Source: Alphaproteobacteria bacterium (GTDB lineage Bacteria; Pseudomonadota; Alphaproteobacteria; Sphingomonadales; Emcibacteraceae). Taken from it: a DNA stretch of 64,000 nucleotides. The stretch covers positions 1 through 64,000 of the forward strand of contig JAUIDN010000004.1 of the NCBI GenBank assembly GCA_030428615.1, in the 5' to 3' direction. Of the stretch, positions 1 through 2,873 are shown piece by piece. The position numbers and the translations under genes were made by a program. Positions within the stretch are counted from its first letter, which is position 1. The number at the start of each line of letters is the position of its first letter. Under the pieces are notes generated by a model. The model did no database searches. It saw nothing but the letters and a program-made list of their open reading frames with translations, and was not told where the DNA came from.

Positions 1-123
1 TCCAAACATTCGCAGGCGAAGCTGAATGCAGTGGCGCGACAGCTCAATGAACGACCAAGAAAAACGCTGGACTTCAGAAGTCCAGCATATAAATTTAACC
101 AATGTGTTGCAGCGACCGGTTGA
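1..123 (+). CDS. IS30-family transposase, C-terminal fragment
   Basis: An open frame enters from the left edge and ends at TGA 121-123, giving 40 residues. They include LNERPRKTLDFRSPA followed by KFNQCVAATG, the usual end of IS30-family DDE transposases (the region after the catalytic glutamate). The rest of the element lies outside the window. The right inverted repeat of the insertion sequence should fall just after the stop, next to the first copy of the 18-bp interspersed repeat. The presence of a transposase marks the first 2.3 kb as accessory DNA. Only the 3' end is visible, so whether the transposase is intact cannot be judged. Confidence 0.85.
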   Translation, partial: SKHSQAKLNAVARQLNERPRKTLDFRSPAYKFNQCVAATG

Positions 124-130
124 GACCGCC

Positions 131-146
131 ACCCAAAGCGGACGTT
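131..146 (-). repeat. Interspersed repeat copy R1 (inverted)
   Basis: ACCCAAAGCGGACGTT is the reverse complement of the unit AACGTCCGCTTTGGGTCG seen at 705, 1252 and 2266. It lies directly after the IS30 fragment and before the lipoprotein gene. Confidence 0.75.
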
Positions 147-219
147 GAGCTTTATGTCAAATTCGATTATCTTAAGTCAAATTAAAGATGTAACTAATTC
201 TTATTGTGGGGAGCTTGAA

Positions 220-678
220 TTGAACTCAATTATTCGTGTAGTCGTTTTTGGCTCTATATGTATTACCTTGTTAAACGCATGCGACATATCGTTTGAATCT
301 GAACAACCTGTGCAAGACATAAATGGTTGTTATCGATATTCTGCGTCTTCTTATATTGATACTTTCTGTATAAATGAAAATAACACCTACCAACAAAAAC
401 GAACTCAAAATGGTTTAGAAACAATATATAATGAAGGCAAGTGGCAATCATTTGAATATAGCTGGGACCCTGATCAGGGAAATTACATTGCCCTTGATGT
501 ATTTGATTTTCATAAAATTCAAAACATAGATGATGGAAGCACAATTCGAGTAGACAAGATTAATTTGTACCCTAAAAAAATTGGCAGCGAGCACCCATCT
601 TTTAGAGTAGGTTTTGCTGTAAAGTATGATGATTATAGATATTGGGATGGCTTGAAATATATCAAAGATGTGCCCTAA
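220..678 (+). CDS. Putative lipoprotein of unknown function
   Basis: The frame is open from 145, but I place the start at TTG 220 because a good SD sequence (GGGGAG at 207-212) sits 7 nt upstream and translation then begins with a short signal peptide (NSIIRVVVFGSICITLLNAC). That peptide ends in a lipobox-like LLNA-C, so Cys at about residue 21 would be lipidated. The mature part (about 130 residues) is acidic and rich in Tyr/Asp, with alternating hydrophobic residues suggesting a beta-rich periplasmic domain. I recognise no family. The gene is AT-rich and bracketed by inverted repeat copies R1 and R2, as expected for a horizontally acquired single-gene unit. An upstream ATG at 154 would give a longer, poorer leader. 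Confidence 0.6.
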   Translation: MNSIIRVVVFGSICITLLNACDISFESEQPVQDINGCYRYSASSYIDTFCINENNTYQQKRTQNGLETIYNEGKWQSFEYSWDPDQGNYIALDVFDFHKIQNIDDGSTIRVDKINLYPKKIGSEHPSFRVGFAVKYDDYRYWDGLKYIKDVP

Positions 679-704
679 TATCACATTTGCTTCTTACAAA
701 TTCC

Positions 705-722
705 AATGTCCGCTTTGGGTCG
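705..722 (+). repeat. Interspersed repeat copy R2
   Basis: AATGTCCGCTTTGGGTCG, one mismatch from the family unit. It is followed by GAAGCAG and lies between the convergent ends of the lipoprotein gene and the next minus-strand gene. Confidence 0.75.
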
Positions 723-729
723 GAAGCAG

Positions 730-1179
730 TCACTTTCTTTTTTGTTCTCTAGAAGCGTCGTGCTGCCTGCACTTTACTATTTTCGATTGTGAATAAGTTG
801 ATCCTATATCTGTTATAATTTCGAAAGTGTACTTACCGAGGTCGCCCACCGGATAAATTCCGGACACTTCAATATTTTGAACATCAGTTGTAAATTCACA
901 AGTCATTTTAGCAGTGCGAAGCCAGCCTTTAGGTATGTTGCATTTTGCTAATTCAGTCGCGAGTTTCTCGCTCCAAATCTGCGCTAACTGATTAATTTCA
1001 GCTGTACCAAGTGACGAACTAGAACCTAAAAGGTCCAAATGAACGATTTCGATTTTATGATCCACGGCTGCCTTGTAAATTTTGCCAATCGCCCAATAAC
1101 CGTTTAGATCGTTATTCCTGCTAACAAACGCGCCAACAATACCTTGAAGAATGTTTTTAAGGTCTTTGCGCCTAGCCAT
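730..1179 (-). CDS. Conserved-looking hypothetical protein (149 aa)
   Basis: The frame begins MARRKDLKNILQGIVGAFVSRNND, basic at the N-terminus and acidic and mixed alpha/beta further on, with no signal peptide or membrane span. One feature is a short Ser-rich stretch (LLGSSSSLGTAE) near residue 52. The C-terminus is basic (REQKRK). I do not recognise the family and assign no function. It is a single gene bounded by repeat copies R2 and R3 and faces the lipoprotein gene convergently. Its stand-alone position between repeats and next to an IS end suggests mobile cargo. Confidence 0.55.
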   Translation of the reverse strand: MARRKDLKNILQGIVGAFVSRNNDLNGYWAIGKIYKAAVDHKIEIVHLDLLGSSSSLGTAEINQLAQIWSEKLATELAKCNIPKGWLRTAKMTCEFTTDVQNIEVSGIYPVGDLGKYTFEIITDIGSTYSQSKIVKCRQHDASREQKRK

Positions 1180-1251
1180 AATGTTTTATACACCCAACGA
1201 AAATAATTGTAATTATACTACCTGATTTTATCTAACCAGCACAACAAAGGC

Positions 1252-1269
1252 AACGTCCGCTTTGGGTCG
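1252..1269 (+). repeat. Interspersed repeat copy R3
   Basis: Exact unit AACGTCCGCTTTGGGTCG. With R4 (1336-1353) it forms an inverted pair (17 of 18 bases complementary) spaced by 66 nt, so the 1252-1353 stretch could fold into one long hairpin. Confidence 0.8.
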
Positions 1270-1335
1270 CTAGAAGACACTCAGAGCGTGCTGTAATGCC
1301 CGAAACAGAATTTTATGGTGACTGAAAACCGCTTT

Positions 1336-1353
1336 CGACCCAAAGCAGACGTT
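1336..1353 (-). repeat. Interspersed repeat copy R4 (inverted)
   Basis: CGACCCAAAGCAGACGTT, reverse complement of the unit with one change. It touches the 3' end of the membrane protein gene that begins at 1353. Confidence 0.8.
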
Positions 1354-2102
1354 CAGAACTTGTTATTTTGCCCCCGAAACGGATAATAAAGAGCCGCCAG
1401 GTAAATTACCTGAATTATCACTAAACGTGCCTGATAACCAAGTTCCATCACTACACCGAAGAGTATGGTTTCATCAAAGCTTTTAGCAGGGCCAATAACA
1501 ATTACCTCGCCACCATAGACGGCGTTCCGCTCAATAAAGAACCATTCGATGAAGTCTCTATGATCGATGTACACCACATACAGTAAATAAAATATCATCA
1601 GGCAAATAATGTTTTTCTTCTGCAGCAACGTCTCTAGCGCCCGTGAAATATCAGGCAAAAAATAGCGGTACCGTGTGTAGCCCTTCAATATAGCCACCAA
1701 AAATATGGAAAATAAACAGAGCAGTACCGGCCATATCATATATCGTATGACTGGGTCCTCTGTTGCATCATACGCTTCTAAGTTAAACAATTTTTGGGTC
1801 AGCTCAAGCTCAACAATAACATATCCTATCATTTGGAGAGAACAGAGAATAAAAATCACAATCAACGTGAGCGCTTTTATGTTGATCCACAATTTGTGCC
1901 AGATTTTACGAAAGGATAGGGTTTTATTTTGCTCTGCGCAATCAACTGTCATTACTAATATAATGGTCTCTATAATCACGTAAATATTATATATAAATCC
2001 ATCGACGCTTGCTTCTAGCTCGCCGTTACCTTCAAAATATAGTTGGTCCAGACCGGCGATAAGGGGAAAAAATTCTCCGACTAATGTAGGCAATGCAAAC
2101 AA
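1353..2102 (-). CDS. Multi-pass membrane protein of unknown function, start unclear
   Basis: The 249-residue protein has about five or six hydrophobic segments, including one at residues 40-55, one near 80-100 and one near 125-145. TTG 2102 is the first canonical start, but the frame stays open upstream to 2225 and the added residues read like a genuine N-terminus (DILKYSFTAPWRVGRSWWAV), running into the first hydrophobic stretch. No ATG, GTG or TTG lies in that extension. A GGGGG tract at 2210-2214 sits 5-8 nt before ATC 2202-2204 and ATA 2199-2201. Either a non-canonical start is used or the start has mutated. It is a single gene between repeats R4 and R5. No family is recognised. Confidence 0.5.
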   Translation of the reverse strand: MFALPTLVGEFFPLIAGLDQLYFEGNGELEASVDGFIYNIYVIIETIILVMTVDCAEQNKTLSFRKIWHKLWINIKALTLIVIFILCSLQMIGYVIVELELTQKLFNLEAYDATEDPVIRYMIWPVLLCLFSIFLVAILKGYTRYRYFLPDISRALETLLQKKNIICLMIFYLLYVVYIDHRDFIEWFFIERNAVYGGEVIVIGPAKSFDETILFGVVMELGYQARLVIIQVIYLAALYYPFRGQNNKF

Positions 2103-2264
2103 TAAAAATGCCCAAAAAACTAATTGCCAGAAAACCGCCCACCACGATCGCCCGACCCGCCACGGGGCTGTGAATGAATATTTAAGGATGTCGGTGTTTA
2201 TGATCTTTACCCCCGAAACTACTCTTTATATTATATAAATCTAGCACATACTTATCATTGAGCC

Positions 2265-2294
2265 AAGCGTCTGCTTTGGGTCGATAGCAGACGT
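2265..2294 (+). repeat. Interspersed repeat copy R5 with hairpin
   Basis: AAGCGTCTGCTTTGGGTCG (2265-2283) is followed by its own partial complement: CGTCTGCT (2268-2275) pairs perfectly with AGCAGACG (2286-2293) around a 10-nt loop. This is the fullest copy and suggests that the complete unit is a palindromic element. Confidence 0.75.
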
Positions 2295-2338
2295 ATTCGT
2301 TTTCCTACCATGTCATCTTCGGCTCAGAAAAATATCAA

Positions 2339-2367
2339 TAAAAAAGCCGGACTGTAAAAGCCCGGCT
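2339..2367 (-). terminator. Intrinsic terminator after the PuuD-like gene
   Basis: On the minus strand AAGCCGG (2367-2361) pairs with CCGGCTT (2349-2343) and is followed by a run of five T. It lies 24 nt beyond the stop of the gene at 2391-2873. Confidence 0.7.
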
Positions 2368-2390
2368 TATTATAATCTATGTGCTGCCCC

Positions 2391-2873
2391 TTACATGATC
2401 GGGTTTTGAACCGAAATCATTGATGCAAGCATCGGGATAGACAGCATTGTATTTGTGCGTGAGAAAAGCATGGCTTTTCTCGCGGCGGCGGGTTTTGCGT
2501 CCGCTTCCGCCTCAACAATGCCGAGAGCGATTTTCTGATTTGGCCAAATGACAAACCAGACATTAAACCACATAATGATGCCAAGCCACATGCCGAAGCC
2601 GATATTTGGTGCCTTAAGCGTTAGGGCATCAACAAGGTAGCCATTCATCATGGCGAGCAATAGACCGAATATAACGGTGAACATCGCGCCCCAACGGAAC
2701 CAGAAAAGCGCCTCAGGGGCAATAACTTTGCCGATGGCCGGTTTCTGTTCATCAGGAATTTTTGGCATACTTGGGATTTGAACAAAGTTAAAATACCAAA
2801 GCAGGCCAATCCACATTACCCCACTGATTACGTGCAGATAGCGGATAAGAAATAGTCCAAATTCATGTGTCAT
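2391..2873 (-). CDS. PuuD-like (urate hydroxylase N-terminal type) membrane protein
   Basis: 160 residues with four hydrophobic helices. The N-terminus LIRYLHVISGVMWIGLLWYFNFVQ, together with the later WLGIIMWFNVWFVIWPNQK, matches the membrane domain found in PuuD/DUF989 proteins. Conserved histidine and tryptophans in the first helix suggest haem or cofactor contact, though that is inference. Full PuuD enzymes carry a C-terminal cytochrome c domain, which is absent here, so urate oxidation should not be assumed. Start ATG 2873 has SD GGGAGAG. It follows a 48-residue membrane peptide gene by 15 nt and ends in a terminator, so the two form a small operon. Confidence 0.6.
   Translation of the reverse strand: MTHEFGLFLIRYLHVISGVMWIGLLWYFNFVQIPSMPKIPDEQKPAIGKVIAPEALFWFRWGAMFTVIFGLLLAMMNGYLVDALTLKAPNIGFGMWLGIIMWFNVWFVIWPNQKIALGIVEAEADAKPAAARKAMLFSRTNTMLSIPMLASMISVQNPIM

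Follow-up and report, generated by a model that had tools for sequence, protein, structure and literature searches.

The window, a stretch of 64,000 nucleotides from an alphaproteobacterium of the Emcibacteraceae (positions 1 to 64,000 of contig JAUIDN010000004.1, assembly GCA_030428615.1), carries at one end (129-2297) a cluster of short palindromic repeats, with three orphan genes lying between them and the end of an IS30-like insertion sequence (IS) beside them. The original prediction, made from the sequence alone, was that an 18-bp repeat next to an IS30 end bounds single-gene cassettes here. Allowing up to 3 mismatches, the 18-mer has five matches in the 64 kb, where shuffling predicts 0.09 and none of 100 shuffles gave five. 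The matches lie within 2 bases of the predicted positions, and the remaining 61 kb contains no further copy:

129-146, minus strand: 18-mer match 1, 1 mismatch
705-722, plus strand: 18-mer match 2, 1 mismatch
1252-1269, plus strand: 18-mer match 3, 0 mismatches (the sole exact copy)
1336-1353, minus strand: 18-mer match 4, 1 mismatch
2266-2283, plus strand: 18-mer match 5, 2 mismatches

The first and second, third and fourth, and fourth and fifth copies are inverted with respect to each other, as had been claimed. The repeat is real and larger than first described: the conserved unit is not 18 bp but a 34-bp dyad, made up of a 13-bp arm, an 8-bp asymmetric spacer, TGGGTCGR (TGGGTCGG/A), and a second 13-bp arm. 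With these 34-bp sites, this end of the window contains the following features:

1-130, plus strand: 3′ end of the IS30-like element (transposase gene end and terminal repeat), which interrupts the site 1 spacer (sequence read directly)
131-148, minus strand: surviving half of site 1 (the ACCCA part of the spacer and the outer arm)
145-678, plus strand: putative cassette gene 1, a 177-amino-acid (aa) open reading frame (ORF) without known domain
703-736, plus strand: site 2, 34 bp, spacer TGGGTCGG
730-1179, minus strand: putative cassette gene 2, a 149-aa ORF without known domain, its stop codon within site 2
1250-1283, plus strand: site 3, left partner of an inverted doublet
1250-1355, no strand: sites 3 and 4 as an inverted doublet, linker included
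1322-1355, minus strand: site 4, right partner of the doublet, overlapping the stop of gene 3
1353-2102, minus strand: putative cassette gene 3, a 249-aa ORF (frame open to 2204) without known domain
2264-2297, plus strand: site 5, the final site before DNA conserved in congeners

All three ORFs are placed between repeat copies as predicted, and none has a match in Pfam or PADLOC searches. The residues LLNAC in gene 1, read by eye, suggest a lipoprotein with a start further downstream. The doublet has an 80% match (window 1252-1350) to congener G011 (C82:9192-9287) and a 77% match (window 1255-1345) to contig C40 of its own genome. An Rfam scan of the window found nothing within the sites; a sub-threshold SorX match (2339-2405, minus strand; 26.7 bits versus a gathering threshold of 46.6) falls outside them, downstream of a urate-oxidase-like gene.

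The conserved neighbors of this locus are kept in 11 of 12 congeners, where homology to the window starts at 2328-2341 in eight loci, one of which matches there with a second piece, and at 2390-2391 in the other three. The comparison scored up to 23 candidates per genome, out of up to 73. In none of the 12 congeners did DNA match the three genes other than at the sites, and the twelfth (G011, 53% complete) matched at the sites only. The last nine features before the boundary in each of the 11 fetched congener loci, two of which are just ∼1.1 kb long, include no site. Since no congener DNA matches the three genes and synteny returns just past site 5, the locus does not behave like one of many ordinary intergenic palindromes with no link to gene gain.

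The search was extended to the whole genome (G000; 3.39 Mb in 41 contigs), as the original prediction had proposed, and revealed far more copies: a 15-mer core of the site (≤2 mismatches) has 58 matches, compared to 6 for the reversed pattern. We scored 52 full 34-bp copies; the scan and the clustering test cover the stretches around 15-mer matches. The sites are clustered rather than evenly spread, with 47 of 52 having another site within 6 kb (random mean of 8.6 and maximum of 22 in 2,000 draws). Many clusters sit at contig ends (C1, C8, C13, C15, C23, C29, and C40), where their repeats may have hampered assembly. A stop codon lies within 60 bp of 32 of the 52 sites and a start codon within 60 bp of 4, while only 2 sites are inside an ORF, though ORFs cover 82% of the sequence.

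The variable positions of the two arms pair roughly as under independence (position 6/27, 0.37 observed and 0.36 expected), and no pair exceeds independence significantly in the 52 copies (top excess at position 1/32, 0.56 versus 0.42, P = 0.12). Because the arms vary independently, the palindrome would be better read as two recombinase half-sites than as a hairpin kept by compensation. The earlier proposal of a mobile or recombinogenic palindrome is supported, but not as a hairpin kept for folding. A hairpin or RNA element was dropped, given arms without significant covariation and sites without an Rfam match. We also consider it very unlikely that the sites are REP/REPIN-like miniature elements that are moved by a RAYT (Y1) transposase and carry genes along. 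Such elements are similar-sized short palindromes at gene 3′ ends, and the inverted doublets look like REPINs, but the Y1 transposase (PF01797) occurs in 1 of 13 genus genomes, while other members of the genus carry up to 38 site matches with ≤2 mismatches (zero in G007 and G009). Furthermore, there is no site match on the Y1 transposase contig, C20, the arms lack hairpin covariation, and the sites, unlike REPs, are clustered and bound genes. Membership in the REPIN/RAYT group was rejected on the absence of the Y1 transposase from 12 of the 13 genomes.

Clusters in the own genome alternate site, gene, and site, with two or more genes in some intervals. The sites bounding gene-length intervals are oriented (−,+) in 15 cases, (+,−) in 6, (+,+) in 6, and (−,−) in 1, an excess of (−,+) of 15/21 (one-sided P = 0.039), and three close site doublets are each (+,−). 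Two 20-kb stretches from Dyella japonica and D. silvatica have 17 sites each, in one orientation throughout, mostly after single genes of ∼80 to 250 aa (a few longer), although some intervals hold two or more genes. The integron-like layout, in which single genes are each followed by a site of the same orientation, is found in Dyella and, in part, in the own genome. The cargo is diverse, with 58 Pfam families in 44 proteins in the own genome and 17 families in 45 proteins in Dyella, where each family occurs in one protein; these alignments cover all but 5 and 4, respectively, of the 49 ORFs listed for each. Of 25 families shown for the own genome, rve occurs in three proteins, ten families (methyltransferase and helix-turn-helix [HTH] models) occur in two, and the others occur in one. 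The presence of rve and HTH_38 is due to IS30 copies.

A database search returned at least 117 site-bearing stretches. Among the 80 listed, sites of the 34-bp type are present in Alpha-, Beta-, and Gammaproteobacteria and on metagenome-assembled contigs of Nitrospinaceae and Nitrospirota. A loose site match is found in 2,851 of 5,426 Escherichia coli genomes. Searches with the alphaproteobacterial 34-mer against plasmids, E. coli, and phages gave mostly weak matches (E > 0.01 for most of those listed), which were used only as Pantoea leads. Transport by viruses was dropped, as a 20-mer of the site occurs in just 14 stretches among 2.9 million viral contigs searched. Four stretches (L113, L159, L120, and L100) contain back-to-back site pairs spaced exactly 34 bp. 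In another (L253:8272-8748), an ORF starts within a site (MSASDPKRTLA...); similar junk ORFs of rhizobia (MSALPPKADI...) may derive from related sites. The site-derived peptides that we searched for were not found printed in open-access papers.

The rest of the IS30-like element lies past the contig end. Near copies occur elsewhere in the own genome, and a related copy encodes an rve domain. Across the 15 site-bearing stretches covered by the target count, the IS-end pattern was found 12 times, 11 times in a site spacer and once inside an IS copy. Two whole copies (L044:9551-10780 and L040:10000-11229) are 1,230 bp each with a 2-bp duplication, AC. The element has a strong preference for site spacers, perhaps not an absolute one because the copy at C5:36829 is not within a matching site. 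The repeat does adjoin an IS30 end, as predicted, but the element is a later insertion in the spacer, which is why only half of site 1 is present, and not the mover. If the sites were mere IS30 targets or transcription terminators and gene turnover were unrelated to them, the location of 11 of 11 IS ends in spacers and of sites after stop codons would be as observed. We find this scarcely credible, since most scored sites contain no IS, the C5:36829 copy lies outside any matching site, and breakpoints and arrays in other taxa exceed what an insertion target explains. It is also countered by the Pantoea unit at three plasmid places and the framed enteric recombinase genes described below.

Sites coincide with breakpoints in homology. 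In the own genome (60-bp flanks), C1:237581 and C13:154708 share an identity of 1.00 downstream of the site and 0.22 upstream, while C25:98039 and C40:84 share 1.00 upstream and 0.33 downstream. Homology blocks between plasmids of Pantoea vagans strains PV989 and C9-1 stop at sites. The two strains also differ in the position of a 675-bp unit carrying a fos-like gene. A 1.9-kb HTH-namA unit, 98% identical, is found at three Pantoea plasmid places (pPag3, pPV989-508, and the conjugative pPag2) with different flanks. One end falls on the first inner-arm base of site A (spacer TGTGCCAG), and the other lies 3 bases beyond the inner 24 bp belonging to site B (spacer CTCGCTCA). By sequence, the sites bound mostly single genes and are homology breakpoints, and one cassette occurs at different places with its ends at sites.

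Qin-like prophages of E. coli contain three alternative cargos between a DUF977 gene and hokD. Homology stops at site A and restarts inside site B, and both sites are present in 5 of 11 alleles of this slot. The cargos include a DUF4209 protein that matches the PADLOC candidate PDC-S39 (E = 3e−102), a SIR2 protein and a Sll1717-family ATPase with weak PADLOC matches, and a protein annotated as abortive infection without a PADLOC match. In the Qin prophage of E. coli DH1 (L229:3367-4223), the slot that holds other cargo in other strains has relBE adjoining a site-like sequence overlapping the annotated ydfV. The clustering of sites, the missing DNA matches to the three genes in congeners, and the Pantoea and E. 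coli strain breakpoints at sites all speak against evenly spread repeats unlinked to gene gain, and the single-gene cassettes of the original prediction are supported.

A gene for a ∼200-aa tyrosine recombinase was found near sites in Pantoea and E. coli, and it is framed by them. Spacer B precedes the ATG by 54 to 55 bp and spacer A follows the stop codon by 25 to 27 bp in 9 of 9 enteric modules, compared to 0 of 52 control ORFs. The outer arms of the framing sites vary between these nine copies, and a tenth copy (L312) has both spacer motifs. When six copies were compared in 15 pairs, homology started 53 to 67 bp before the ATG in 14 and ended 33 to 52 bp after the stop in 14. One copy is located within the E. 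coli prophage slot. The recombinase-proximal arms are degenerate, a difference that resembles the one between attI and attC.

The recombinase family was detected in 71 of 398 Pseudomonadota genomes (E = 1e−30) and on 674 plasmid records (E = 1e−10), where distant Gram-positive relatives make up the weakest matches. Most of the module is present in 715 of 5,426 E. coli genomes and any part of it in 899. Among the 117 site-bearing stretches (0.88 Mb), four hold a family member (three whole genes and one fragment), where ∼0.06 would be expected from ∼100 matches in 398 genomes of an assumed 4 Mb each. The three whole genes have sites or half-sites on both sides, partly read by eye. Reading by eye also gave the half-sites next to the recombinase genes of L113 and L085 and the site in G010. 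In a sample of the phylum, a full site occurs in 6 of 30 recombinase loci, compared to 0 of 30 loci of the integron integrase IntI and 0 of 30 reversed sequences at the same threshold. Half-sites scoring ≥8 are found upstream of 15 and downstream of 18 of the 30 recombinase genes, compared to 8 and 8 of 57 control ORFs. In an order-mate of the own genome (G055), two sites flank the gene beside an array, and in congener G010 the sequence TCGACCCA-TAGCGGAC comes after the gene, TCGACCCA being the spacer found in the window. The gene and a stringent site are ≤5 kb apart in two of three genomes holding both (G319 and G232).

All four recombinases tested match PF00589 (E = 9e−19 to 3e−21). By our assignment of residues, R51, K79, R151, H174, and Y183 are invariant and H148 is nearly invariant in 13 aligned members, giving the catalytic R-K-H-R-H-Y set of the tyrosine recombinase superfamily; in one E. 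coli copy (L309), Arg replaces the first His of this set. Simple tyrosine recombinases are described as combining a core-binding with a catalytic domain (PMC8138268). The recombinase profile aligns to XerD 130-280 only, the catalytic half, and neither the profile nor the structural model contains the N-terminal core-binding domain of Xer and IntI. The predicted structure, of modest confidence (mean pLDDT of 65.7), has ∼28 low-confidence residues ahead of the catalytic fold and matches XerA, XerD, XerH, lambda integrase, Cre, and IntI with TM-scores of ∼0.4 to 0.5.

It is likely, from these sequence comparisons, that the 34-bp sites are recombination sites that bound mobile single-gene cassettes and that the ∼200-aa tyrosine recombinase is the enzyme that most likely acts on them, an assignment drawn from linkage and boundaries. 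The recombinase, with a catalytic domain only, would cut and join DNA in the spacers, where the crossover would fall, and would thereby excise, insert, and swap cassettes that may pass through a circle. The window would then contain three cassettes in an assembly without a recombinase of the family, like an integron array lacking its integrase.

Several observations weigh against this interpretation. The own genome lacks a recombinase of the family at E = 1e−15, and only 2 of 12 other genus genomes carry one (G005 and G010). Co-occurrence at the genome level is not raised: of the 13 genomes with a stringent site, 3 carry the gene, versus 71 of 398 overall. Of the 30 recombinase loci, 24 gave no full site in the scan, and raising the half-site score to 11 leaves little excess (6 upstream and 6 downstream of 30 versus 5 and 3 of 57). 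One module comparison starts 80 bp before the ATG and one ends 65 bp after the stop. The site orientation in the own genome is mixed, not uniform. Of the 11 prophage alleles, two have neither site and four have one site or a degenerate one, and prophage mosaics can also arise via homologous recombination in shared flanks. An empty site was not found in 5,426 E. coli genomes. This last result, the exchange of prophage cargo between the same two sites of one slot, and the position of 32 of 52 sites within 60 bp of stop codons would also fit boundary linkers, palindromes at gene ends that provide short homology for ordinary or relaxed recombination with no dedicated enzyme, as reportedly proposed for lambdoid phage mosaics. 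However, the HTH-namA unit ends at sites in three plasmid places with different flanks, sites frame the recombinase gene in 9 of 9 enteric modules, and the recombinase is enriched near sites in other taxa. Boundary linkers are therefore an unlikely explanation.

The textbook way for bacteria to gather single genes as cassettes is the integron. Integrons share with the sites described here arrays of single genes, a palindromic site after the stop codon, and a tyrosine recombinase beside the array. Clusters of attC sites lacking an integrase (CALINs) are known, and the arrays here likewise occur without a recombinase. D. silvatica has a true IntI gene at the edge of a contig, with a weak site after it (L259:95-128, score of 23). 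Nevertheless, a true integron array, in which IntI uses divergent attC sites, is most improbable. None of the 30 IntI loci has a full site in the scoring scan, and a looser scan gave 2 IntI loci versus 4 matches in reversed sequence; IntI was dropped as the enzyme. A simple motif search of five stretches of 9 to 20 kb found no RYYYAAC..GTTRRRY pair. IntI was not found at the TIGR02249 cutoff in the own genome, G001, G003, G354, or G355, and D. japonica has no IntI above the cutoff. IntI is present in 72 of 398 genomes at E = 1e−70, and of the 13 that have a stringent site, 3 carry it. Unlike integrons, the 34-bp 13-8-13 dyad lacks attC core motifs by this search and comes with two kinds of spacer (A and B), the bounded genes lie in either orientation, and the ∼200-aa recombinase is not IntI and has no core-binding domain. 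The sites would work like the cassette sites of integrons, yet they fail the tests made here for IntI and attC motifs.

Other known systems resemble this one in part. Judged from geometry alone, the sites would be loxP-like: an asymmetric 8-bp spacer flanked by inverted 13-bp arms is also the plan of the loxP and FRT sites of Cre and Flp, but the arms are degenerate, the spacer types differ per lineage, and many gene-bounding sites occur per genome. In the Xer pdif modules of Acinetobacter plasmids, short sites also bound genes in alternating orientation; the present sites seem unlike dif in sequence and have a small recombinase gene beside them. The FimB/FimE invertases are likewise ∼200 aa with a catalytic domain only, but their NCBIfam model matches weakly (36 bits versus a cutoff of 222), and the recombinase is linked to cassette sites rather than to a fim switch. 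No description of the system was found in open-access papers, with subscription papers and preprints outside the search; papers that contain one of the sequence words are unrelated judging by their titles, the words presumably being primers.

On the whole, and with somewhat more reserve than for the sites themselves, we think that this is probably a second system of gene cassette capture, independent of IntI/attC, across the Pseudomonadota and perhaps beyond. It would consist of the recombinase and paired 34-bp sites of two spacer types, with arrays on chromosomes, plasmids, and prophages and cargo such as candidate defense genes in E. coli (PDC-S39 and, weakly, SIR2). The site-selective behavior of the IS30-like element deserves separate attention, and the 34-mer is a simple sequence handle for finding new mobile genes. 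A second cassette system with other sites and another recombinase could explain how small orphan, metabolic, and defense genes enter genomes, plasmids, and prophages.

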